From assembly GCA_947632455.1 (NCBI GenBank), contig CANRPK010000015.1:1-32293 (forward strand): a DNA stretch of 32,293 nucleotides, in the 5' to 3' direction. Source of the stretch: an uncultured Bacilli bacterium (lineage in GTDB: Bacteria; Bacillota_I; Bacilli_A; RF39; UBA660). The notes beneath the pieces are model-generated. The model was not told where the DNA came from, ran no database searches, and saw only the letters and a program-made list of their open reading frames with translations. Below, one piece after another: positions 15,071 to 25,483 of the stretch (position 1 is its first letter; each line of letters opens with the position of its first letter). A program made the translations under genes and the position numbers.

Positions 15071-17221
15071 ATGAATGAAGAAATTATTAAAAATATAAGT
15101 TTAGAACTTAATATAAAAGAAATACAAGTAAAAAATACACTTAATTTATTAGAAAATGGCGCGACTATTCCATTTATTGCCAGATATCGAAAAGAAGCAA
15201 CGGGTTCATTAGATGAAAATCAAATAAGTAAAATAAATGAAGTATATACTTATCAAGTAAATTTAGAAAAAAGGAAATTAGATGTTATTAGATTAATAGA
15301 GGAAAAGGGTTTATTAACTGAAGATTTAGAAAAGAAAATAAAAGACGCAACTAAATTAGTAGAGGTAGAAGATCTATATCGACCTTTTAAGGAAAAGAAA
15401 AAAACTAAAGCAACGGAAGCTATAAAATTAGGTTTAGAACCACTTGCTAAAGAAATATTAAATGAAAATAAAAATATATATATGATTGCTTCTAAATTTA
15501 TTAATGATAAAGTTAAAAATATAGATATGGCTATAGAACAAGCTTTATATATAGTCGCAGAGAATATAAGTGATAATGCAAGTTTTAGAAAATATATACG
15601 TAATAATATGGAAAAATATGGAATATTAAAAGTTAATAAAAAGAAAAATAAAGAAGATAATAATAAAATATATGAAATGTATTATGATTATAATGAAAAA
15701 GTTGAATATATTAAACCTCATAGAATACTAGCTATAAATAGAGGAGAAAAAGAAGATATATTAAATGTTAATATTGAAGTAAATAAAGATTATATACAGA
15801 ATTATCTTAAAAATAAATTAATTCATAAAATAGATTATCCTACAGCTAAATTATTAGAACTAGCAATAAATGATGCTTTAAAAAGATTGATAATACCAAG
15901 CATTGAAAGAGAAGTTAGAACATCTTTAACTGAAAAAGCTGAAGATGCCGCGATTGTAAATTTTAGTAAAAATTTACATAATATTTTACTTCAACCACCA
16001 ATTAAAGATAAAAAAGTTTTAGGGTTTGATCCCGCATTTAGAACTGGTTGTAAACTTGCCGTGGTAAATGAAGTAGGAGATTTATTACATATTGATTTAG
16101 TAAATCCTCATACATCGGTAAATAAAATAAATGAAGAAAAACAAAAAATATTAGCTTTAATTGATAAATATGATATTGATATTATTGCTATAGGTAATGG
16201 TACAGCTTCAAGAGAAAGTGAAGCATTTATTGCAAGTACAATAAAAGAAGCTAAAAAACAAGTTAATTATATAATTGTAAATGAAGCAGGAGCTAGTGTT
16301 TATTCGGCTTCTAAATTAGCTCAAGAAGAATTTCCAGATTTACATGTAGAACAAAGAAGTGCGGTTTCGATTGCCAGAAGATTAATAGATCCTTTAAGTG
16401 AATTAGTAAAAATTGATCCTAAAAGTATTGGAGTGGGGATGTATCAACATGATGTAACAGAAAAAAAGTTAGAAAAAGAACTTACTTTTGTAGTAGAAAC
16501 AGCGGTTAATAGTGTAGGAGTAAATGTTAATACAGCTTCTTTAGAATTATTAAGCTATATATCTGGTTTAAATAAAAAAATGGCTCAAAAATTAATTGAT
16601 TATAAAAGAAAAGTGGGAAAAATAAAAAATAGAGAAGAATTAAAAAAAGTTTTTTCACCAAAAGTTTATGAACAAGCAATAGGTTTTTTAAGAATTCCAG
16701 ATGCTTATGATTATTTTGATAAAACGGCTATTCATCCCGAAAGTTATAATATTGCTTTAAATATTTTAAATAAATATAATTTAACTAAAGATGATATGGG
16801 AACGGATAAAATAAAAAAAGTTTTAAATAATATTGATGTTACTAGTTTAAGTAATGAAGTAAATAGTGATGTATATACCGTTACAGATATTATTAAAAGT
16901 TTAACTTTTCCCCTTAGAGATCCAAGAGATGAGATAGCTGCGCCAGTTTTAAGAAGTGATGTTTTAACTATTGATGATTTAAAAGTAGGGATGGAATTAG
17001 AAGGGGTAGTAAGAAATGTCATTGATTTTGGAGCATTTATTGATGTAGGTTTACATGATGATGCTCTAGTACATATTTCCCAAATTAGTGATGATTATAT
17101 AAAACACCCTAGTGATGTTTTGAGTGTTGGAGACATTGTTAAGGCTTATGTTTTAGATGTCGATAAAGAACGACAAAGGGTTTCTTTGACACTTAAAACT
17201 AGTTCTTTGATAAATTTATAG
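15071..17221 (+). CDS. tex: Tex family RNA-binding S1-domain protein
   Basis: This 716-residue protein is a full-length Tex/YhgF, a conserved nucleic-acid-binding protein linked to transcription and RNA handling. Visible parts in order: the Tex N-terminal helical region with GATIPFIARYRKEATG (about 30-45), a YqgF/RuvC-like domain around VLGFDPAFRTGCKLAVV (about 316-332), helix-hairpin-helix segments (about 485-560, NTASLELL and GKIKNREELKKV), and a C-terminal S1 domain (about 640-716, GVVRNVIDFGAFIDVG ... SLTLK). The ATG at 15071 follows AAAGGGAG. It appears to be a single gene with a TATAAT just upstream. No clear terminator is seen before the 17253 promoter. Confidence 0.95.
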   Translation: MNEEIIKNISLELNIKEIQVKNTLNLLENGATIPFIARYRKEATGSLDENQISKINEVYTYQVNLEKRKLDVIRLIEEKGLLTEDLEKKIKDATKLVEVEDLYRPFKEKKKTKATEAIKLGLEPLAKEILNENKNIYMIASKFINDKVKNIDMAIEQALYIVAENISDNASFRKYIRNNMEKYGILKVNKKKNKEDNNKIYEMYYDYNEKVEYIKPHRILAINRGEKEDILNVNIEVNKDYIQNYLKNKLIHKIDYPTAKLLELAINDALKRLIIPSIEREVRTSLTEKAEDAAIVNFSKNLHNILLQPPIKDKKVLGFDPAFRTGCKLAVVNEVGDLLHIDLVNPHTSVNKINEEKQKILALIDKYDIDIIAIGNGTASRESEAFIASTIKEAKKQVNYIIVNEAGASVYSASKLAQEEFPDLHVEQRSAVSIARRLIDPLSELVKIDPKSIGVGMYQHDVTEKKLEKELTFVVETAVNSVGVNVNTASLELLSYISGLNKKMAQKLIDYKRKVGKIKNREELKKVFSPKVYEQAIGFLRIPDAYDYFDKTAIHPESYNIALNILNKYNLTKDDMGTDKIKKVLNNIDVTSLSNEVNSDVYTVTDIIKSLTFPLRDPRDEIAAPVLRSDVLTIDDLKVGMELEGVVRNVIDFGAFIDVGLHDDALVHISQISDDYIKHPSDVLSVGDIVKAYVLDVDKERQRVSLTLKTSSLINL

Positions 17222-17252: not shown

Positions 17253-17300
17253 TTGCAATAATAAAAATTATTTGATATGATTTTTTATAGTAAAGGAGGT
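17253..17300 (+). promoter_or_regulatory. Promoter and RBS of the expressed cassette gene
   Basis: TTGCAA (17253-17258), 17 bp, TATGAT (17276-17281), then AAAGGAGGT (17292-17300) 7 bp before the ATG. This is the only complete promoter-RBS-ATG set attached to the three related cassette bodies. Confidence 0.75.
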
Positions 17301-17307
17301 ATTTCAA

Positions 17308-18003
17308 ATGGAAAGGAAAAATACAGTTTTATTAACAGTAATCGCTGTGGCAACTCTTTTAGTTGCAGTCGTTGGTGCAACTTTCGCATATTTCACTGCT
17401 ACTAGTACTAATGACGATAATAGTGCTGGAACAGCCGCTGCTACTACTGCAAAAGTTGCACAAGTTAAACTAAGTGCTTCTGCTATTGAAGGATCTAAAG
17501 AGGCTATTTGGCCTGGTACTTCTAATTATATTGGAACTAGTGTATCTGCTAGTGTAGAGGAAGAAGGATCTAACAGCGAAGCTACATATGAGGTAAATTA
17601 TACATTAACAGGTTCTGTAACTCCTAGTGCTGCTTTCTCTCAAGGTAAAATTGATTGGAAATTATATAAAGTAACTGAAGAAGTTAAGACACCAGTTACT
17701 TGTACTCCAGTTTCTGATGGAGGAGAAAATAAATTTTCACAAACTTGTACTTTAGATACGAAGTTAACCGGAGATACTGCTGTTGAAGCTGCTAGTGGAA
17801 GTATTGAAGTTGGTTCAAGTGATGCTGAGACTGTTACATATACTGGAACTATAAAAACTGGTGCTGCGACTGAGTATTTTTACTTAGTTTATACTTATGA
17901 AAGTAAACCTGAAACTGATCAAAGTGCTGATGCTGGAGGCACTAAAACTGTTACAGCTGCTATAACTGATGTTACAAGCAATAGTGTTAAAGTTGCTTCA
18001 TAA
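17308..18003 (+). CDS. Expressed SipW-type surface protein (TasA/camelysin-like), cassette 1
   Basis: This 231-residue protein has a SipW-type signal (1-31: basic start MERKN, long hydrophobic core, GATFAYFTA) and a Thr/Ser/Ala-rich beta domain. Two Cys (about 131 and 148, VTCTP and SQTCTL) could form a disulfide, and the same pair occurs in cassettes 2 and 3. A conserved turn is seen as WPGTSNYIGTSVSASV (cassette 2: YPGTMNYVGTSVSASI). The C-terminal motif TDQSADAGG corresponds to NQ..DQG in relatives. It should be exported, processed by the SipW-like enzyme at 24731, and form surface fibres or a matrix as TasA does; that role is inferred. Bases 17312-17402 recur, inverted and identical, at 20532-20622, and 17360-17412 recur directly at 19038-19090, so this is the likely expression site of a variable locus. 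Confidence 0.85.
   Translation: MERKNTVLLTVIAVATLLVAVVGATFAYFTATSTNDDNSAGTAAATTAKVAQVKLSASAIEGSKEAIWPGTSNYIGTSVSASVEEEGSNSEATYEVNYTLTGSVTPSAAFSQGKIDWKLYKVTEEVKTPVTCTPVSDGGENKFSQTCTLDTKLTGDTAVEAASGSIEVGSSDAETVTYTGTIKTGAATEYFYLVYTYESKPETDQSADAGGTKTVTAAITDVTSNSVKVAS
17312..17402 (+). repeat. 91-bp repeat, copy A (inverted partner at 20532-20622)
   Basis: These bases encode residues 2-31 of the surface protein. Read base by base they are identical to the reverse complement of 20532-20622. Identity stops at once on both sides (GAA versus TAA upstream, TAGTACT versus CGCAACC downstream). The last 43 bp plus the next 10 are also found directly repeated at 19038-19090. Confidence 0.95.
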
Positions 18004-18023
18004 TTATAATTTAAAATTGAATG

Positions 18024-18049
18024 AAACTATCCTGAGTGATAGTTTTTTT
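18024..18049 (+). terminator. Terminator of cassette 1
   Basis: AAACTATC, loop CTGAGT, GATAGTTT, T run. The stem sequence AAACTATC is shared with the cassette 3 terminator. Confidence 0.85.
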
Positions 18050-18081
18050 GATAAAAAATATTTTTTTATAATATTTAGTTA

Positions 18082-18124
18082 AATAAAAAAAGTAGATAGT
18101 TATTAATTTCTATCTGCTTCTTTT
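18082..18124 (-). terminator. Hairpin, probable minus-strand terminator
   Basis: AAGTAGATAG / CTATCTGCTT (18090-18119) has a T run only on the minus strand. It would end transcription coming from the dinJ/yafQ remnant. Confidence 0.55.
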
Positions 18125-18165
18125 AATATTATTCCATAATTTTTTTATCATAATAAATTTTAATA

Positions 18166-18436
18166 ATATTAAAATTTATAATTTTTATCATATATAAAAA
18201 TCTTATTAATCAAATATATACCATATGCAAATTTTATTAATTTTTTTGTTACAAATATTTCTCTATATTTTTGAAATATTCAATATATAAATTATACAAA
18301 ATATATTTTAGGTTTTTTATTATTTTTTTTACTAAAGTTTCAATCACTTTATATAATTTATTTAAATCTTTATGTTGATTTTTAATTTTTTATATCTTAC
18401 TTAAGAACTCAAAAAAATTAAATATTTATATTTCAT
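18166..18436 (-). pseudogene. Decayed YafQ/RelE-type toxin remnant
   Basis: This AT-rich stretch directly follows the DinJ-like antitoxin on the same strand. An ATG at 18436, 2 bp past the antitoxin stop, begins MKYKYLIFLSS, then a stop, then VRYKKLK. After a one-base frame change the text continues KIKNQHKDLNKLYKVIETLV. The combined pattern matches the N-terminal half of YafQ-like toxins (MKYKI.F...FKKDYKK.KK.GKD.NKL..VI..L), the normal partners of DinJ. Beyond that the sequence is unrecognisable and full of stops. The 3' limit given is only the expected family length (about 90 codons). A real RNase is not encoded here. Confidence 0.5.
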
Positions 18437-18438
18437 AT

Positions 18439-18723
18439 TTAATCTTCATTTAAAGCTTTAATTAAATCAGACATATTATTATAATCTTTTAGTTCTTTTT
18501 TGCCATTTTCAATATCTTCTAATTCTTCCATTGCTTCTACCATTCTTTTAGTAGGTTTATAATTACTTACTTTAAAAGGAATTCCATCTTTTTTAATTAC
18601 TTGTTTGATAGCAATATTAATAAATGTAGTCATATTTAAGCCTAAATCTTTTAATATTCTTGTTGCTTCCTCTTTATCTTTGGCATCAACTTGAACATTT
18701 ATTACGCTTGTTAAAGATTTCAT
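18439..18723 (-). CDS. DinJ/RelB-family antitoxin
   Basis: This 94-residue protein has the RHH pattern of DinJ/RelB antitoxins: strand SVINVQVDAKDKEEATRIL, then DLGLNMTTFINIAIKQVIKKDGIPFKV, the hallmark segment of the family (LGLN.TTAIN.F.K......GIPF). The C-terminal part (about 58-94) is the acidic toxin-neutralising arm. RBS GAGG and the ATG at 18723 are clear. The promoter (18755-18783) contains repeated TATGTAGTA-like motifs upstream, suiting autoregulation. Its toxin gene appears decayed, so it is now probably a lone DNA-binding protein. It sits between the arms of the 91-bp inverted repeat, on the strand opposite cassettes 1 and 2. Confidence 0.85.
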   Translation of the reverse strand: MKSLTSVINVQVDAKDKEEATRILKDLGLNMTTFINIAIKQVIKKDGIPFKVSNYKPTKRMVEAMEELEDIENGKKELKDYNNMSDLIKALNED

Positions 18724-18754
18724 ATTTATTTATACCTCACTTTTTAATAGTTAA

Positions 18755-18783
18755 ATTTTAACATATAAACTACTATATATCAA
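18755..18783 (-). promoter_or_regulatory. Promoter of the dinJ-like gene
   Basis: Minus-strand TTGATA (18783-18778), 17 bp, TAAAAT (18760-18755). Just upstream are direct repeats of TATGTAGTA (two copies) and TATAGTAGT, possible operator half-sites. Confidence 0.6.
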
Positions 18784-18875
18784 TTTATATACTACATATT
18801 TACTACATAATAACCACAATATTAATACATATTAAAAAGTAAAAAATATTAAAAAAGTCAAAAAACAATATTTTC

Positions 18876-18904
18876 TTGACTAATAAAAGTAAAGTATATA
18901 TACT
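18876..18904 (+). promoter_or_regulatory. Promoter P1, ahead of a 56-bp palindrome
   Basis: TTGACT (18876-18881), 17 bp, TATACT (18899-18904). The palindrome starts at the last base of the -10, so transcripts would begin within or at its left arm. The next body downstream is the silent cassette 2. Confidence 0.65.
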
Positions 18905-18959
18905 AGATAAATAAAATTTAAAAGGATAACTGGTTGTACTTTTAAATTTTATTTATCTA
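18904..18959 (+). repeat. Palindrome 1 (21-bp perfect arms)
   Basis: Left arm 18904-18924 and right arm 18939-18959 are perfect reverse complements. The 14-bp centre (GATAACTGGTTGTA) is itself partly symmetrical (ATAAC / GTTGT). The left arm ends in AAAAGGA, an RBS-like string that the hairpin would mask. No long T run follows at once, so it is not a standard terminator. Confidence 0.9.
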
Positions 18960-19006
18960 TAACATTTTTTCTTCTTTTTCAAATTTTTGTTTTTTTATTT
19001 TTCAAT

Positions 19007-19035
19007 ATGTATACCACTTGTTAAGTGGTATACAT
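19007..19035 (+). repeat. Palindrome 2 at the cassette 2 junction
   Basis: ATGTATACCACTT, GTT, AAGTGGTATACAT: perfect 13-bp arms. It ends 2 bp before the block shared with cassette 1 (from 19038). Confidence 0.9.
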
Positions 19036-19037
19036 TA

Positions 19038-19711
19038 TAGTTGCAGTCGTTGGTGCAACTTTCGCATATTTCACTGCTACTAGTACTAATCCTGAAGAAG
19101 GAAAAGGAAGTGCTACTATACAAACTGCTAAGGTTGATAATATTAAGTTAAATGCAACTGCAATGGAACAAAGTAATAACAAACCAATATATCCAGGCAC
19201 TATGAATTATGTTGGAACTTCTGTAAGTGCAAGCATCGATGGTGCCAGTGGAAGTGGAAAAAATTATGATGTCACTTTCAAAATAACTGGAAAAATTGAA
19301 GTTAAAACTACTGATCATGAACCTGCGGCTAGTACTTTAGCACAAGATGTTACTTGGACAGCATATAAAGTTACTAAAGCAGAGAAAACTGCTCTTTCAG
19401 ATAAGCAAGTAGTTAGTTGTGATCCTGTGACACCTGTAAGTGATGGTGTAACTGTTAAATATTCTCAAAGTTGTAAAACTGATGAAACAATTACTACAGA
19501 AGTCGGAAGTGGTACATTATCAGCTGGATCAGGAAGTGAAACTATTGAGATTACTGACCAAAAAGTAACTACTGGGGCTGATGAAGTATACTATTATATT
19601 GTATATCAATATAAAAATGTTGAGTCACCTCAAAATGAAGACCAAGGAAAAAATATTATTGTAAGTATAGATGCTATCGAAGGCACTAAAACTGAAGAAG
19701 CAGTTGGATAA
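19038..19711 (+). pseudogene. Silent surface-protein cassette 2 (no start codon)
   Basis: This open frame encodes about 224 residues of the same family as cassette 1, but it begins inside the signal peptide (VAVVGATFAYFTA). Its first 53 bp are identical to 17360-17412. There is no ATG or RBS. A GTG at 19025 is inside palindrome 2, has no RBS and is preceded by an in-frame TAA (19022-19024). The body is intact: YPGTMNYVGTSVSASI, two Cys (VSCDP and SQSCKT), and the tail NEDQGKN. An intact body without a start fits a donor cassette rather than a decaying gene. P1 at 18876 could transcribe it. Restoration would need recombination with the 17308 expression site. Confidence 0.75.
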
Positions 19712-19717
19712 TATTTT

Positions 19718-19743
19718 AAATCTATCATTCGATAGATTTTTTT
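19718..19743 (+). terminator. Terminator of cassette 2
   Basis: AAATCTATC, ATTC, GATAGATTT and a T run. Presence of a terminator after a startless body suggests it is a whole former or reserve gene end. Confidence 0.85.
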
Positions 19744-19745
19744 GT

Positions 19746-19774
19746 TTGACAAAATAATAAGTATGCTATATATT
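19746..19774 (+). promoter_or_regulatory. Promoter P2, ahead of a 52-bp palindrome
   Basis: TTGACA (19746-19751), 17 bp, TATATT (19769-19774). Transcription would run through palindrome 3 and then antisense into cassette 3, with no plus-strand terminator seen before it. Confidence 0.65.
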
Positions 19775-19777
19775 AGG

Positions 19778-19829
19778 TGGATAAAAAATTAAAAAGGAGA
19801 ATATATTTTCCTTTTTAATTTTTTATCCA
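19778..19829 (+). repeat. Palindrome 3 (52 bp, 25 of 26 pairs)
   Basis: Arms 19778-19798 and 19809-19829 are perfect, and the centre AATATATT is itself palindromic; only one opposed pair (G/T) breaks symmetry. As in palindrome 1 the left arm ends in an RBS-like AAAAAGGAG. The two units (P1 plus palindrome 1, P2 plus palindrome 3) look like diverged copies. Confidence 0.9.
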
Positions 19830-19843
19830 TATTATATTGGGCC

Positions 19844-19897
19844 AGGAAAAAATTTTAGCATTTTATGCTAAAATAAAAAACTATCTATCGATAGTTT
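19844..19897 (-). terminator. Tandem terminators of cassette 3
   Basis: On the minus strand AAACTATC, GATA, GATAGTTTTTT (19873-19897) is followed by ATTTTAGCAT, AAA, ATGCTAAAAT and TTTTT (19852-19874). Confidence 0.8.
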
Positions 19898-19900
19898 CTA

Positions 19901-20622
19901 TTAGGATTTAAGACTAACTTTTGTTCCGGTTACTCCAGATAATTGAAGCTTAATATCTTTTCCTTGATCAGTCGTAGCTTGATTTGAACCAGGATCATTA
20001 GCATATTTAAGTATTAAATAATAATGAACACCTGCAGCTCCAATCTCTTCAACATCAAGTTCTAATCCTTCTTTTGTTATCTCAAATTTACCATCAGAAT
20101 CGGTAGTGATATCAAGTGTTTGATCAGTTTCAAATAATTTATTTGTATCTTTAAGGTTAGTGTCAAGAGCACAACTATTTACTGACATTTCTAAACCAGA
20201 TGTACCTGAAGTACTCACAGCGCAATCAGTTACAGGTTCGGTAACAGCATCTCCAGTCACTTTATAAATATTATAAGTAAATGAAGAAGTAGAATTTTTT
20301 TGTTTAAGCGCTGATAAATCAATAGAACCATTTAGAGTATAAGTAACTTTATAATCATTATCATGGTCACCTTCATATTCAGCTTTTACTCCAACACCAG
20401 CAGCTAACCAAACACCAGGATAAATAGTTTCAAAGTTAGTTATGCTTTCAGGTGAAGCGGTAACATTTACATTACTTACCTTAGCAGTACCAACACTTAC
20501 TTCACTTCCGCCTTTATCTCCACCGGTTGCGGTAGCAGTGAAATATGCGAAAGTTGCACCAACGACTGCAACTAAAAGAGTTGCCACAGCGATTACTGTT
20601 AATAAAACTGTATTTTTCCTTT
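19901..20622 (-). pseudogene. Silent surface-protein cassette 3, inverted
   Basis: This minus-strand open body encodes about 240 residues of the same family. It includes the full signal block from codon 3 of the expressed gene (RKNTVLL...GATFAYFTA) and then a different mature part (TATGGDKGGSEV). It has YPGVW, two Cys (VTDCAV and VNSCAL), and the tail TDQGKD. The first 91 bp equal 17312-17402. Just before, the codon that is GAA in the expressed gene reads TAA, and no ATG or RBS precedes it. A GTG in the frame (at 20587) lies inside the hydrophobic core and is not a credible start. Inversion across the 91-bp repeats would place this body in frame behind the 17253 promoter and ATG. Confidence 0.8.
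20532..20622 (-). repeat. 91-bp repeat, copy B (inverted partner of 17312-17402)
   Basis: It is identical over all 91 positions to 17312-17402 when reverse complemented. The pair encloses about 3.1 kb containing cassette 2, the dinJ gene, P1, P2 and three palindromes. Confidence 0.95.
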
Positions 20623-20625
20623 ATA

Positions 20626-20657
20626 TATGAATATGATATAGCTATATCATATTCATA
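20626..20657 (+). repeat. Palindrome 4 (32 bp, perfect) at the cassette 3 junction
   Basis: TATGAATATGATATAG / CTATATCATATTCATA has perfect 16-bp arms and no spacer. It starts 4 bp beyond the 91-bp repeat and ends 6 bp before the promoter of the second dinJ gene, so it could be an operator or a recombination-related site. Confidence 0.9.
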
Positions 20658-20710: not shown

Positions 20711-20983
20711 ATGTCTACTATTAATGTAAATGTACCTTCAGATATTAAAGATAAAGCTAATCTTTTATTTGAAGAATTGGGTTTAAATATGACTACAGCA
20801 ATAAATATGTTTTTAAGAAAATCGATTGATGAATGGGCAATACCTTTTAATGTTAGTGCAAAAAGACCTAATAGAGAATTATCAGAAGCATTACAAGAAG
20901 GGGAAGGTATTTTAAATGGTAAGATACAATCTAAAAGTTATAATAATGTTGATAAAATGTTTGATGATATATTAAGTAAGTAG
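20711..20983 (+). CDS. Orphan DinJ/RelB-family antitoxin
   Basis: This 90-residue RHH protein has the DinJ hallmarks: STINVNVPSDIKDKANLLF as strand and first helix, then ELGLNMTTAINMFLRKSIDEWAIPF and an acidic C-terminal arm. The start is the ATG at 20711, 8 bp after GGAGG; an open frame reaching back to 20663 runs through the promoter and has no RBS. No toxin gene follows: the stop codon is immediately succeeded by palindrome 5, then by a promoter for the next surface gene. It is similar to, but clearly diverged from, the 18439 protein, so this is not a recent duplication. It lies just outside the 91-bp inverted repeat. A regulatory role on the adjacent palindromes is possible but unproven. 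Confidence 0.85.
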   Translation: MSTINVNVPSDIKDKANLLFEELGLNMTTAINMFLRKSIDEWAIPFNVSAKRPNRELSEALQEGEGILNGKIQSKSYNNVDKMFDDILSK

Positions 20984-21096: not shown

Positions 21097-21681
21097 ATGA
21101 AATTTGATTTAAAGGAACAGAAGAGGAATATTCTTTTGGGAACTATTTTATGTGCGTTAGTGGCATGTATTGGATATTCATTTGCTTATTTTACAGCGGG
21201 AGTTAAAACTACTACTGAAGGATTAGAGAATGGAGTTACAGTTCAGACAGCTAAATTTTTAAAGATTACTTATGATGCAGGAGATAGCGCATCAATAAAC
21301 ATTAATAATGCTTATCCTGGAATGAGAGATGTAAAAAAAGAATTTAGTGTAAATGTTGAACCTTATGGTAATCAACAAGTAGCAATGTATGATGTTTTAA
21401 TTAATATTAGTAAAAATACTTTTACTGATACAAATAATGATTTAAAATATACTTTAAAAGGTGTAAATAGTAAAGGTGAAAGTGTACTAGATCAATCTGG
21501 AACTTTAACTAATGTTACTGGAAAAGTTGGACCATTTCAGGTTACACATGAAGCTAAAGAAGGTAAAGCTGAAAAATGTACTTATACATTAACGATTTCT
21601 TATCCGGATAATGGAAAAAATCAAAATCATGAAGGCAACTTTGAATTTATTGGAACTATAGATGTTCAGTTACATAAATAG
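21097..21681 (+). CDS. SipW-type surface protein (TasA-like), 194 aa
   Basis: The start is the ATG at 21097 (MKFDLKEQKR), 7 bp after GGAGG; a TTG two codons earlier is too close to the RBS. The signal is SipW-type: basic start, hydrophobic core about 13-30, ending in GYSFAYFTAG. The mature part has NNAYPGMRDVKKEFSVNVEP, matching the YPGT segment of the cassettes, a beta-rich core, and the C-terminal motif NGKNQNHEGNF that parallels NQ..DQG. A similar fold appears in the tail of the rod protein that follows. It is in the same orientation as the rod gene and the sipW-like gene but has its own terminator. It is probably a constant, non-switching member of the locus. Confidence 0.8.
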   Translation: MKFDLKEQKRNILLGTILCALVACIGYSFAYFTAGVKTTTEGLENGVTVQTAKFLKITYDAGDSASININNAYPGMRDVKKEFSVNVEPYGNQQVAMYDVLINISKNTFTDTNNDLKYTLKGVNSKGESVLDQSGTLTNVTGKVGPFQVTHEAKEGKAEKCTYTLTISYPDNGKNQNHEGNFEFIGTIDVQLHK

Positions 21682-21764: not shown

Positions 21765-24629
21765 ATGGAAGAAAATAATTTACAAGAACAATACGCTTTA
21801 TTGGAAAAGGAAAAAGAAGAAGATAGAAAGAAAACGATAATAATTATTATTTTATGTATATTGATTATTATTGTTACATTATTAGGGTTATTTTTTGCTT
21901 ATTCTAATGTAGGAAAGTTTTGTACTGTAAACTGTGATATTAACAAAGATGGCAAATGTGATTTAAATTGTGATATTGATGGAGATGGTATTCCGGATAT
22001 TAACATCGATACTGATGGAGATGGAAAGCCTGATATAAATCTTGATTATAAGGGAGATGGCAAAGCTCATTTTAATATCGATACAGATGGAGACAGAAAA
22101 CCTGATACTAATGTAGTTGGCAAAGATACAAATGGTGATGGTGTTTGTGATTACAACTGTGATACTGATGGTGATGGTATTCCGGATATAAATCTTGATT
22201 TTGACAATTCTAATACTTGTCATATTAATTGTGATATTAATGGAGATAATAAACCAGATATAAATCTTGATACTAGTGGAGATGGAAAGCCTGATTTAAA
22301 CGTTGATGTTAATGGAGATAGAAAACCTGATCTAAATGTAGATACTACTGGAGATGGAAAGCCTGATCTAAATGTAGATACTACTGGAGATGGAAAGCCT
22401 GATTTAAACGTTGATGTTGATGGAGATAGAAAACCTGATATAAATATTGATACTACGGGAAATGGAAAACCTGATTTAAATGTTGATGATGATGGAGATA
22501 ATATTCCAGATAAAGGTCTTGATTATGATAATGATGGTAAATGTGATTTTAATTGTAGTAAAGATGACGGAACTTTTGATAAAGATGTAAATCTTGATAC
22601 AAATGGTGATGGTGTATGTGATGTAAACTGTGATACTAATAAAGATGGTATTCCAGATTTAAATGTTGATTTTGATGGAGATAAGAAACCTGATGTAAAC
22701 GTTGATACTGATGGAGATGGAAAACCTGATTTAAATTTAGATGTTAACAGAGATAAAGATCCAAATGTAAATGTAGATACTACAGGAGATGGAAAACCTG
22801 ATAAAAACGTTACTAATCAAGATACTGATGGTGATGGTGTATGTGATTTAAACTGTGATACTAATGGTGATGGTATTCCGGATAAAAATGTAGATATTAC
22901 TGGTTCTGGTACTTGTGATTTAAACTGTGATACTAACAAAGATGGTGTATGTGATAAGAACTGTGATACTAATGGAGATGGAAAACCTGATAATAACATA
23001 GTTGATGAAGAAACTGGTAAATGTAAATTAAATTGTGATACTAGTGGAAATGGTACACCTAATGTAAATGTAGATACGAATAATGATGGTAAATGTGATG
23101 TAAATTGTGATACTGATGGTGATGGTATTCCTGATACTAATTTAGATTATCATGGTAATCAAATTCCACAATTTGATATTGATACAGATGGAGATGGAAA
23201 GCCTGACAAGAACGTTACTAATCAAGATACGAATAATGATGGTAAATGTGATTTAAACTGTGATACAGATGGAGATGGACTTCCTGATGTAAATGTTGAT
23301 TTAAGTGGAAATGGTAAACCTGATGTAAATGTTGATAAAGATGGAGATGGAGTTCCTGATATCAATATTGATTCCAGTGGAAATGGAAAGCCAGATACAA
23401 ATGTGGATACAGATGGAGATGGAAAACCTGATAAGAACGTTACTAATCAAGATACAGATGGTGATGGTAAATGTGATGTAAACTGTGATACAACTGGAAA
23501 TGGTATTCCTGATACTAACATTGATAGTGATGGTGATGGTTCATGTGACCTTAACTGTGATACTAATAAAGATGGTAAGTGTGATGTTAACTGTGATATT
23601 GATGGAGATAAAATTCCAGATACAAATGTAGATACTACTGGAGATGGAAAACCTGATTTAAATGTTGATAATGGTACAGGTAAATGTGAATTAAACTGTG
23701 ATATAAATGGTGATGGAGAGCCTGATACGAATGTGGATACAACTGGTGATGGAATTCCTGATACTAACATTGATAAAACTGGCGATGGCAAATGTGATGT
23801 TAACTGTGATACAACTGGAAGTGGAACTTGTACTTTAAACTGTGATACAGATGGAGACGGAGTTCCTGATACAAATGTGGATACAACTGGTGATGGTAAG
23901 TGTAATGTTAATTGTGATGGTGAAATTAGTAATGATGCTAACTTAAAAGATTTAAGTGTTGGTAATTATATTTTAACGCCAAAGTTTAGTCCTAATGTAA
24001 CAAGTTATACAATTACAGTTGGTAAAGATGTTAAATCAGTTAATGTTAGTGCTACAGCAAATAATCCTAAATCTAAAGTAAGTGGTCTTGGATCATTTAA
24101 TGTATCAAATGGTACAGTATTAAATGTTGTTGTTACCGCTGAAGATGGCACTACTAAGACATATAAGATAACTGTTAAAGTTGGAGATGGATCTTCAGTT
24201 GGTGATGATGGTGAAGGCAAGACTGAAATAGAGCCTAGTGATACTACACTTTTAGTAACATATACTAAAGGTATAAATGTTGAAAATATTGAGCCTGGTT
24301 GGCATGGTAGACAAACATTTACTTTAACTAATAATGTACCTAAATCTGTTGTTTATAGAATTAATTTAATAGATGTAACTAATACCTTTAAATCTCGTAA
24401 TTTTAAATATGTTTTAAGAAAAGATGGAGATGTTATTGTTTCTAGTACTGTAGCTCCAAAAACTACTGATAGAGAGACTATTACAGAAGATTTAATAATA
24501 GCTGCAGATGAAAAAGCAGAATTTATATTAGAGTATGAATTTGTAGAAACTAATAGGGAACAAAATGAAGATCAAGGTGTTAGATATTCAGCTAAAGTAG
24601 AAATTGAAGTTGTTTCAATAGTACAATAA
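21765..24629 (+). CDS. Giant calcium-binding-repeat surface rod with TasA-like tail
   Basis: Start is the ATG at 21765 (MEENNLQEQY) after AGGGAGTG; an upstream extension to 21705 crosses the promoter. This gives 954 residues. Order: cytosolic charged start; hydrophobic segment (about 24-47) ending in LLGLFFAYSN, close to a SipW-type signal; about 55 twelve-residue repeats (about 53-718) of the form D-T-D-G-D-G-K-P-D-x-N-V; a cadherin-like beta-sandwich domain (about 724-808, LKDLSVGNYILTPKFSPNVTSY); and a C-terminal domain (about 825-954) like the TasA-type proteins, with NREQNEDQG. The DxDGDG loops should bind calcium, as in thrombospondin type 3 repeats. Many repeats carry a C-D-x-N-C-D pair, unusual for such rods. 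It is probably a long calcium-stiffened spacer tied to surface fibres. Repeat number may vary between strains. Confidence 0.88.
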   Translation: MEENNLQEQYALLEKEKEEDRKKTIIIIILCILIIIVTLLGLFFAYSNVGKFCTVNCDINKDGKCDLNCDIDGDGIPDINIDTDGDGKPDINLDYKGDGKAHFNIDTDGDRKPDTNVVGKDTNGDGVCDYNCDTDGDGIPDINLDFDNSNTCHINCDINGDNKPDINLDTSGDGKPDLNVDVNGDRKPDLNVDTTGDGKPDLNVDTTGDGKPDLNVDVDGDRKPDINIDTTGNGKPDLNVDDDGDNIPDKGLDYDNDGKCDFNCSKDDGTFDKDVNLDTNGDGVCDVNCDTNKDGIPDLNVDFDGDKKPDVNVDTDGDGKPDLNLDVNRDKDPNVNVDTTGDGKPDKNVTNQDTDGDGVCDLNCDTNGDGIPDKNVDITGSGTCDLNCDTNKDGVCDKNCDTNGDGKPDNNIVDEETGKCKLNCDTSGNGTPNVNVDTNNDGKCDVNCDTDGDGIPDTNLDYHGNQIPQFDIDTDGDGKPDKNVTNQDTNNDGKCDLNCDTDGDGLPDVNVDLSGNGKPDVNVDKDGDGVPDINIDSSGNGKPDTNVDTDGDGKPDKNVTNQDTDGDGKCDVNCDTTGNGIPDTNIDSDGDGSCDLNCDTNKDGKCDVNCDIDGDKIPDTNVDTTGDGKPDLNVDNGTGKCELNCDINGDGEPDTNVDTTGDGIPDTNIDKTGDGKCDVNCDTTGSGTCTLNCDTDGDGVPDTNVDTTGDGKCNVNCDGEISNDANLKDLSVGNYILTPKFSPNVTSYTITVGKDVKSVNVSATANNPKSKVSGLGSFNVSNGTVLNVVVTAEDGTTKTYKITVKVGDGSSVGDDGEGKTEIEPSDTTLLVTYTKGINVENIEPGWHGRQTFTLTNNVPKSVVYRINLIDVTNTFKSRNFKYVLRKDGDVIVSSTVAPKTTDRETITEDLIIAADEKAEFILEYEFVETNREQNEDQGVRYSAKVEIEVVSIVQ
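21922..23920 (+). repeat. Coding tandem repeats, 36-bp period
   Basis: About 55 units, period 36 bp (12 codons) around GGAGATGG..., many near-identical over 36-72 bp (for example 22317-22376). Two classes alternate: Lys-Pro-Asp units and Cys-Asp-x-Asn-Cys-Asp units. The repeats invite slippage or unequal crossing-over in frame. Confidence 0.9.
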
Positions 24630-24730: not shown

Positions 24731-25483
24731 ATGAATAATAAAAAAAGCAGTTTTATGAATATTACTAAAATTATTAGTAAGATTATTTCTTGGGCCCTAT
24801 TTGTATTACTATTAATGGCTGCGGCTTTTTTAATTTATTATTATATTGCAACTAGAATATATGCTAAAAAAGGTCCTGGTTATGAGCCATATTTTTCTAT
24901 TTATACGATTGTTAGTCCATCTATGACACCAAATATTAATGTTTATGATGCGATAATAAATATTAAAGTTAAAGATCCTTATGATATTAAAGAAGGGGAT
25001 GTAATTACCTTTATTTCAACTAGTTTAATATCTCCAGGAACAACTATTACACACCGGGTAAAAGAAGTAATAAAAGATGAAGATGGTAATGTTTGTTATA
25101 AGACTAAAGGAGATTACAATAAAGTTGAAGATCAAGCTTGTGCTAAATATAATAACGTTATTGGTAAAGTTGTATTAAAAATTCCACAATTAGGAAGATT
25201 ACAATTTTTCTTAGCTTCAAGATTGGGTTGGTTATTATGTATTTTATTACCGGCTTTAATAATAATTATTAAAGATATATTAAGAATAGTTACACTTTCT
25301 AATATTAAAAAAACTACAAGTGATATGTCAAATAAGAAAGTGGATCCAGAAAAAGCTAAGAGGGAAGAAGAAAGAAAAAAAGAACTTAAAAGAAGATTAA
25401 TTAAAGAAAATAAAAGTGATAATTATTATGTAGAACCATCAGTAAAAACTGTTGATAAAAGAAATAAGAAAAAGGGGACATAG
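24731..25483 (+). CDS. sipW: SipW-like type I signal peptidase (ER type)
   Basis: This membrane serine protease cleaves signal peptides of TasA/camelysin-type proteins. In the 250-residue protein the catalytic Ser is S64 in VSPSMTP (62-67 region), and the second residue is His (H108 in TITHRVKEV) instead of the Lys of ordinary bacterial LepB. Ser-His marks the ER/archaeal type (MEROPS S26B), to which B. subtilis SipW belongs. Membrane segments are at about 17-40 and 160-190. A highly charged cytosolic tail (about 200-250, rich in K/E/R) follows and is longer than I expect. Position right after three kinds of candidate substrates supports the pairing, as in tapA-sipW-tasA. The symbol is by function; orthology is not proven. 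Confidence 0.9.
   Translation: MNNKKSSFMNITKIISKIISWALFVLLLMAAAFLIYYYIATRIYAKKGPGYEPYFSIYTIVSPSMTPNINVYDAIINIKVKDPYDIKEGDVITFISTSLISPGTTITHRVKEVIKDEDGNVCYKTKGDYNKVEDQACAKYNNVIGKVVLKIPQLGRLQFFLASRLGWLLCILLPALIIIIKDILRIVTLSNIKKTTSDMSNKKVDPEKAKREEERKKELKRRLIKENKSDNYYVEPSVKTVDKRNKKKGT

Follow-up and report, generated by a model that had tools for sequence, protein, structure and literature searches.

Organization of the cassette locus

We analyzed a 32,293-nucleotide stretch of DNA (hereafter, the window) from an uncultured Bacilli bacterium of the RF39 lineage (GCA_947632455.1, contig CANRPK010000015.1, positions 1 to 32,293, forward strand). Downstream of tex, the window carries three intact and divergent bodies of one surface-protein family, which share the DNA encoding the signal peptide, together with the following features:

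15071-17221 (+), tex, encoding an S1-domain RNA-binding protein, a fixed anchor beside the expression slot in relatives
17253-17281 (+), promoter of the expression slot, TTGCAA-17-TATGAT
17303-17402 (+), shared block of slot 1 (signal-peptide code), left arm of the inverted repeat, of which the inner 17312-17402 is perfect
17308-18003 (+), cassette 1, expressed, 231 aa, with a SipW-type signal and an all-beta mature part
18439-18723 (-), RelB/DinJ-type antitoxin without an adjacent toxin, a spacer gene (TIGR02384, 68.6 bits; PF04221)
18904-18959, long AT-rich palindrome upstream of slot 2, also found in the sister species
19007-19035, palindrome ATGTATACCACTTGTTAAGTGGTATACAT directly 5' of slot 2, which in the sister species keeps its symmetry with paired changes
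19025-19711 (+), cassette 2, silent (no RBS, no ATG), intact frame, with the GTG at 19025 as the only listed in-frame start
19038-19090 (+), shared block of slot 2, perfect direct repeat of 17360-17412
19901-20622 (-), cassette 3, silent, intact frame, whose orthologue (58% aa identity) is the expressed body in the sister species
20532-20631 (-), shared block of slot 3, right arm of the inverted repeat
20626-20657, perfect palindrome directly 5' of slot 3
20711-20983 (+), second RelB/DinJ-type antitoxin without toxin, in the slot 3 flank (TIGR02384, 71.9 bits)
21097-21681 (+), neighbouring exported protein, right-hand anchor of the array
21765-24629 (+), large acidic-repeat surface protein with a Cadherin-like domain (PF12733), syntenic in relatives
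24731-25483 (+), SipW-type signal peptidase, the likely processing enzyme (TIGR02228, 89.1 bits; cut-off 51.85)

The repeats described in the first-pass annotation were confirmed to the base. Positions 17312-17402 equal the reverse complement of 20532-20622 over all 91 bp, and 17360-17412 equal 19038-19090 over all 53 bp, lengths that are far beyond chance. The inverted arms extend to 17303-17402 and 20532-20631 at 97% identity, and these are the only three copies in the 1.54-Mb assembly. Divergence begins right after the block: the bodies share 42%, 32% and 30% amino-acid identity in pairs, and the best local DNA match between bodies is at most 47 nt. All three frames are open to a stop, and the shared sequence is in register with the reading frame. 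Only cassette 1 has AAGGAGG and ATG, behind a promoter that was identified by pattern scan and matches 9 of 12 consensus bases; the same hexamers lie next to tex in the sister species (genome G001), with close variants in two further related genomes, G004 and G019. In contrast, cassette 2 could begin only at a GTG inside a palindrome and cassette 3 only at a GTG without RBS.

Export signal and protein family

To test if the cassettes encode SipW substrates, we compared their N-termini with TIGR04088 and found that 8 of 8 matched at E<=1 (best E 1.5e-5), although cassette 1, at 18.3 bits, falls just under the 19-bit cut-off. Together with the SipW-type peptidase nearby, this supports the SipW-type signal. 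The proposed relationship of the mature part to TasA/camelysin rests on one weak fold match: the top Foldseek hit of cassette 3 in the PDB was the TasA fibre 8aur (E 2.7e-4, TM-score only 0.33), whereas the cassette 1 model gave no significant hit. The mature domain had no Pfam or other family-level sequence match, and a search of PDB sequences with the family profile gave nothing, observations that neither establish nor exclude homology to TasA/camelysin. No Lactobacillus S-layer family was hit in the family searches, which did not include Rfam, and a scan of IMG/VR with cassette 3 found no relative, so that no phage origin is indicated.

Bodies are exchanged between conserved slots in related genomes

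To examine if the bodies move between slots, we compared the window with related genomes, which include MAGs recovered from rabbits. One clade of the genus carries arrays of 3 to at least 9 cassettes. In these array genomes the slot next to tex has promoter, RBS and ATG, while most other slots have lost RBS and/or ATG; a few slots not seen next to tex also carry both (G001 slot 3, G015 C39, G019 C61 and G012 C86, where C numbers denote contigs), so more than one body may be expressed in some species. Orientation alternates in the longest arrays, G004 and G019. In addition, we found that the spacers between cassettes are rich in toxin-antitoxin genes.

The first-pass annotation had stated in advance that its reading would be refuted by a lack of inverted or recombinant junctions in deep read data from many samples, together with the same body always at 17308 in all related genomes. 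The second of these conditions does not hold: in G001 the segment corresponding to 17303-20631 lies inverted between exactly these arms, and the orthologue of silent cassette 3 sits in the expression slot beside tex. This is exactly the layout produced by one inversion between the 91-bp arms, and one of four layouts reachable by inversion from that of the window. Between species, slots keep their flanks (80-95% DNA identity) up to the block, but all 10 comparable slots, from two independent species pairs, hold non-orthologous bodies, and the three body orthologues found sit in different slots. In the G004/G019 pair, with Tex 93% identical, seven orthologous slots have upstream flanks of 80-95% DNA identity over 412-598 nt, with collinearity ending at or near the block, yet their bodies are only 30-42% identical; the two clear body orthologues (67%) sit in non-orthologous slots. 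All array genomes are fragmented MAGs of 71-99% completeness. Correlation of the expression-slot body with Tex distance was near zero in array species (-0.06), which, with few species, is only supporting. Taken together, these results strongly support the proposed inversion.

We next asked how the shared block and the silent bodies evolve. A 54-nt core of the block is 99.0% identical within genomes against 77.5% between genomes, synonymous sites included. Furthermore, all silent bodies are intact (211-279 codons), and five orthologous pairs with both members start-less or silent-slot have dN/dS of 0.21-0.36, indicating purifying selection. Palindromes beyond shuffles at P<0.05 were found upstream of 9 of 29 silent against 3 of 24 expressed-type slots; they are striking in the window and G001 but not general, and therefore were not made part of the mechanism.

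Candidate recombination machinery

RecA is present. The window's genome has 8 tyrosine and 6 serine recombinase hits, but no recombinase was recognized among the ORFs of the window or of the array spacers. In scans of the genus, no serine recombinase was found in G001, G004, G012 or G025, and G001, G015, G019 and G025 have just two tyrosine-recombinase hits each, of about 300 aa where listed; pairs of such size are common in single-copy species too. The window copy of the block contains AGTTGCA-8-TGCAACT, which looks like a tyrosine-recombinase site, but this possible core was rejected because other species do not keep it: the block drifts at synonymous sites between species and has no conserved core. 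The length of the shared tract also varies (53, 91 and 109 bp). These observations make RecA-type recombination the likeliest engine.

A model of cassette switching and its alternatives

The interpretation offered in the first-pass annotation, inversion between the 91-bp arms or gene conversion through the common 5' block that attaches a new mature domain to the same start, is supported by our analysis. We propose that this is a cassette-switching locus for a SipW-exported, fibre-like surface protein, a reading to which we assign a probability of about 0.85. In this view, one expression slot beside tex supplies promoter, RBS, start codon and signal peptide, and the other slots hold start-less bodies behind an identical copy of the signal-peptide DNA. 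Reciprocal recombination between two oppositely oriented blocks would invert the DNA between them and exchange the body at the expression slot in frame for a silent one; in the three-slot layout of the window, successive inversions could bring all three bodies to the promoter, while gene conversion across the same block would keep its copies identical. Our comparisons show the repeats, the intact silent bodies and the purifying selection on them, an inversion between two species at these arms, the shuffling of bodies between conserved slots and the homogenization of the block. That switching occurs now within a strain, for which neither reads nor second genomes of the same species were examined, that RecA-type homologous recombination drives it, and that it serves to vary surface antigens or phage/host contacts are inferences from these data. 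Arrays in direct orientation (G015 C50, G017 C53) cannot switch by simple inversion in their present layout, a point that counts against the model, as do the fragmentation of the array genomes and the RBS and ATG of a few slots not seen next to tex.

Among the alternatives, unidirectional gene conversion of silent bodies into the expression slot in the manner of pilS or vls, with only occasional inversions, is unlikely. It would fit the homogenization of all copies of the block, including that of cassette 2 in direct orientation, the arrays that are wholly in direct orientation, and the third-position GC of the block, which is raised in array genomes relative to tex (difference 0.20 against 0.03, Mann-Whitney P-value 0.002) as GC-biased conversion would give. 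However, the window has no shared 3' homology to end a body-length conversion tract, G001 shows the reciprocal inverted layout, and no body was found twice in one array genome, as one-way copying would give; the near-identical pair in genome G002 both have RBS and ATG. We consider it somewhat less likely still that a dedicated site-specific recombinase, an Xer-like tyrosine recombinase or a serine invertase, acts on a core site within the block, as Xer1 or HvsR are thought to do in mycoplasmas. The exchange points do lie in a short fixed block, and the recombinase hits of the window's genome and the AGTTGCA-8-TGCAACT motif of the window copy also speak for this possibility, but it is opposed by the lack of a recognized recombinase among the ORFs of the window or the array spacers, the few recombinase hits in the related genomes, the drift of the block and the variable tract length described above.

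Two further explanations are very unlikely. Static paralogues, in which the block is conserved by selection on the protein and the silent copies are decaying pseudogenes or are expressed from unusual starts, would agree with the nearly invariant protein sequence of the block across the genus, but identity at synonymous sites holds only within genomes, the silent bodies are intact with low dN/dS, and the movement of bodies between conserved slots already refutes this view unless the swaps are assembly errors. Wrong joins at repeats in metagenome assemblies are suggested by the many contigs that end at the block (for example, G005 C65 and C49, G013 C64 and G017 C53), so assemblers do stumble there. 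Nevertheless, the repeats are only 53-109 bp and lie in unbroken 32-40-kb contigs (G000 C15, G001 C5), conserved flanks with a different body were seen in 10 of 10 comparable slots, and misjoins cannot explain homogenized synonymous sites or start-less intact bodies.

Relation to known switching systems

In Lactobacillus acidophilus, a chromosomal inversion exchanges the active and silent S-layer genes slpA and slpB (Boot et al. 1996, cited in PMC7858073), likewise in a gut Firmicute; there is one silent gene there and up to at least eight other cassettes here, the cargo here is a SipW-exported protein rather than an S-layer protein, and the spacers here carry toxin-antitoxin genes. In the Mycoplasma pulmonis vsa locus, one expression site supplies promoter, RBS and 5' code by DNA inversion to the 3' parts of silent genes, which lack a functional 5' end (Bhugra et al. 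1995; described in PMC2268961, PMC4534519). Site-specific recombination is proposed for vsa, with 714 nt of fixed 5' code and lipoproteins, whereas here the fixed 5' code is about 95 nt, no dedicated recombinase is apparent and the block is free to drift. A single promoter is also joined to silent surface-protein genes by inversion in Mycoplasma agalactiae vpma and M. bovis vsp (Xer1) (PMC2268961), but the xer1 gene is adjacent to the vpma locus and no recombinase is seen here. Borrelia vlsE has one expression site plus silent, promoterless cassettes, and uses segmental one-way conversion between cassettes of about 90% identity (PMC11499132), while here whole bodies of about 30-40% identity move with homology on one side only. 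Neisseria pilE/pilS likewise has one expression site and silent, promoterless cassettes. Bacillus subtilis TasA and C. perfringens BsaA are SipW-dependent matrix fibre proteins that share with the cassettes the SipW-type signal and a nearby SipW peptidase; in our literature search, no cassette switching was found described for those proteins.

It is possible, though more tentative than the model above, that a gut clade of Bacilli has built, once, a shufflon-like array of TasA-like fibre genes that needs no dedicated recombinase. Identical signal-peptide blocks would recombine by general homologous recombination, and toxin-antitoxin modules in the spacers would select against cells that lose spacer DNA by recombination between direct repeats, so that the array could keep shuffling without shrinking.

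Cassette switching of surface proteins is known mainly from pathogens and a few lactobacilli. Here it appears as a clade-level trait of uncultured gut commensals, applied to a SipW-exported and possibly TasA-like protein family for which no switching was found described, and it would let the bacterium change its surface. The toxin-antitoxin load of the spacers makes a testable case for addiction modules guarding a recombining array. Because slots and bodies can be told apart by comparison, the locus shows signal-peptide DNA serving both as secretion signal and as recombination handle.

A proposed switching array whose shared block was found in one genus only among the genomes searched

To test if the repeats proposed in the first-pass annotation are genuine, we compared the window with itself and with the rest of the 1.54-Mb assembly. 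The observation held to the base: a perfect 91-bp inverted repeat and a perfect 53-bp direct repeat are present, and only these three copies of the shared block exist in the assembly. The features needed for what follows are:

17303-17402 and 20532-20631, the longer inverted arms, 97% identical
17312-17402, perfect reverse complement of 20532-20622 (91 bp)
17360-17412, identical to 19038-19090 (53 bp)
17308-18003, cassette 1, with TTGCAA-17-TATGAT, AAGGAGG and ATG
18439-18723 and 20711-20983, the two RelB genes of the window
19007-19035 and 20626-20657, palindromes directly 5' of the silent blocks
21765-24629, large acidic protein
24731-25483, SipW-type peptidase

Cassettes 2 and 3 have open bodies but neither an RBS nor an ATG. 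The three bodies differ strongly, with 42%, 32% and 30% amino-acid identity in pairs and no extended DNA match after the block. The slot 2 palindrome keeps its symmetry through paired changes in the homologue from the sister species G001 (locus L032, 5154-5182), and these palindromes could be transcription insulators or recombination-stimulating structures.

We next examined how widely the block is distributed. A DNA search found it in 18 of 35 other same-genus genomes (19 with the window's own) and in none of 24 genomes outside the genus, and a profile of the N-terminus found matches in 32 of 36 genus genomes, some of them only distant SipW-type proteins. The named records are uncultured Bacilli MAGs whose isolate names begin "Lapin", and the rabbit source is read from that name. 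Three of the contigs (C) in our numbering of genomes (G) were matched to CANQYU010000005.1 (G001 C5), CANRIB010000034.1 (G004 C34) and CANRBQ010000072.1 (G019 C72). Wherever tex and a cassette were seen together, the expression slot lies directly downstream of tex. In a Tex tree the genomes with three or more cassettes fall in one group of nine rows (support 94/89), together with G027, whose contig breaks soon after the block, whereas the remaining species have one copy, or two in G002 and G035. Array sizes range from 3 (window, G001) to at least 9 bodies (G004). Contigs of several genomes (G005 C65/C49, G013 C64, G017 C53/C103, G025 C124, G027 C76) end at or close to the block, suggesting unassembled further copies or mixed junctions in the population. 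The large acidic protein, which is built of 36-nt repeat units (DGDGxxD-like) and has a Cadherin-like domain, is conserved beside the array in relatives.

Bodies are exchanged between conserved slots

The first-pass annotation had proposed that inversion between the 91-bp arms, or gene conversion using the common 5' block, would attach a new body in frame to the same start, and had named a search for swapped bodies in related genomes as a way to check this. We aligned the window with G001. Tex, promoter and block are collinear up to 17402; the match then continues in G001 into the homologue of window cassette 3, while the middle part with the RelB gene and slot 2 is in the opposite orientation relative to the flanks. 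This is one of the four layouts that serial inversion between opposite blocks can make from the window, and in G001 the two arms are identical over 109 bp, including the RBS. Slots 1, 2 and 3 of the two species have flank identities of 85% (591 nt), 90% (564 nt) and 83% (151 nt), but the bodies in those slots are only 29%, 33% and 27% identical, and the one orthologous pair is window slot 3 with G001 slot 1, at 58%. The interpretation in terms of inversion is thus supported, as a difference between species; the comparison rests on one genome per species and on fragmented MAGs, and no reads were examined.

A second species pair is G004 and G019, whose Tex proteins are 93% identical. Seven slots can be matched by their flanks (80-95% DNA identity over 412-598 nt), and in all seven the bodies are only distantly related (30-42%). 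The two clear body orthologues (67%) sit in different slots: G004 a with G019 d, and G004 d with G019 g2. Collinear stretches end at or near the block, for example G004 C56 1-1453 with G019 C61 4332-5783 at 92%. Taken together, ten of ten comparable slots across the two species pairs are discordant; the slot is inherited with its flank and the body is exchanged, with the join at the signal-peptide block. Two single-copy bodies, L017 870-1541 (G023) and L007 1554-2225 (G029), are 84% identical in amino acids with dN/dS 0.89 although their Tex proteins are only 80% identical; this looks like recent transfer plus fast change.

The block is homogenised and silent bodies are kept intact

A 54-nt core of the block is on average 99.0% identical between cassettes of one genome but 77.5% between genomes, with species-specific synonymous bases shared by the cassettes of a genome. 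Because bodies in the same genomes are often only 30-40% identical, this is not recent duplication, and it points to continuing exchange of the block. In array genomes the block is also richer in G+C at third positions (0.17-0.47) than tex of the same genomes (0.08-0.18), the difference being 0.20 against 0.03 in single-copy genomes (P = 0.002). GC-biased conversion would explain this, but with 30 codons and related species the result is only suggestive.

To examine if the silent bodies are decaying, we analyzed all 32 bodies that fail a simple RBS-plus-start pattern, a set that includes one ambiguous case, G029, which starts with GTG. All are open over 211-279 codons. Five orthologous pairs in which both members belong to this set have dN/dS of 0.21-0.36, and a simple neutral simulation put about 3-5 stops into each. 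In G004 and G019 several silent copies retain upstream sequence but have the start ATG changed to AAG. Although no expression data were included, purifying selection on genes that cannot be translated in place is best explained by expression after recombination.

Recombination machinery and comparison with known systems

RecA is present. No serine recombinase was detectable in G001, G004, G012 or G025, and G015, G019 and G025 have only two tyrosine recombinases each, all about 300 aa like XerC/XerD; G001 also has two hits, one of 313 aa and one too weak to be listed. Pairs of this size are common across the genus, single-copy species included. Furthermore, no recombinase was recognised among the ORFs of the window or the array spacers, and the block has no base-level core conserved between species. 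General homologous recombination is therefore the simplest reading, although a role of XerC/D is not excluded and MAG incompleteness tempers the negative results. The repeats, the inverted layout, the discordant slots and the homogenised block are observed directly, while the engine that moves the bodies is inferred.

The locus works like the slpA/slpB inversion of Lactobacillus acidophilus (PMC7858073) and the vsa locus of Mycoplasma pulmonis (PMC2268961, PMC4534519). We do not class it as a recombinase-driven system, because a locus-borne recombinase and a conserved core site were both looked for and neither was found. Among the open-licence papers searched, none describes switching of SipW substrates.

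Cargo and spacer genes

All eight N-termini tested match the SipW-dependent signal model TIGR04088 (best E 1.5e-5; cassette 1 is 0.7 bits under the cut-off), and a SipW-type peptidase lies nearby. Structural models of cassettes 1 and 3 are largely confident beta folds (mean pLDDT 84 and 80). A fold search with cassette 3 returned the TasA fibre (8aur) as the best PDB match, with E 2.7e-4 but a TM-score of 0.33, whereas cassette 1 returned nothing significant. TasA subunits join by an N-terminal donor strand near the start of the mature protein (PMC9674648); a similar arrangement here is possible, but we did not examine it.

The DNA between cassettes carries RelB/YafQ, MazE/MazF-like, AbiEi/AbiEii and Fic genes and AAA_14/DUF4143 ATPases. 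Toxin-antitoxin genes are concentrated in the following array spacers (L, loci of relatives):

L033: 177-756, 1662-2259, 3277-3848
L036: 3254-3833, 4831-6248, 7148-7719
L106: 7663-9095
L107: 8970-10509
L050: 8377-8948
Window: 18439-18723 and 20711-20983

In nine array-bearing genomes 10 of 20 RelB hits lie in array loci, including both in the window's genome, all three in G015 and the only ones in G001 and G033. Even if arrays made up 5% of a genome, the binomial probability would be about 1e-8, a figure that treats related genomes as independent. The window's two RelB genes have no adjacent toxin ORF. As a hypothesis for the function of these genes, direct repeats such as the block should cause deletions, and addiction modules in the spacers would select against them.
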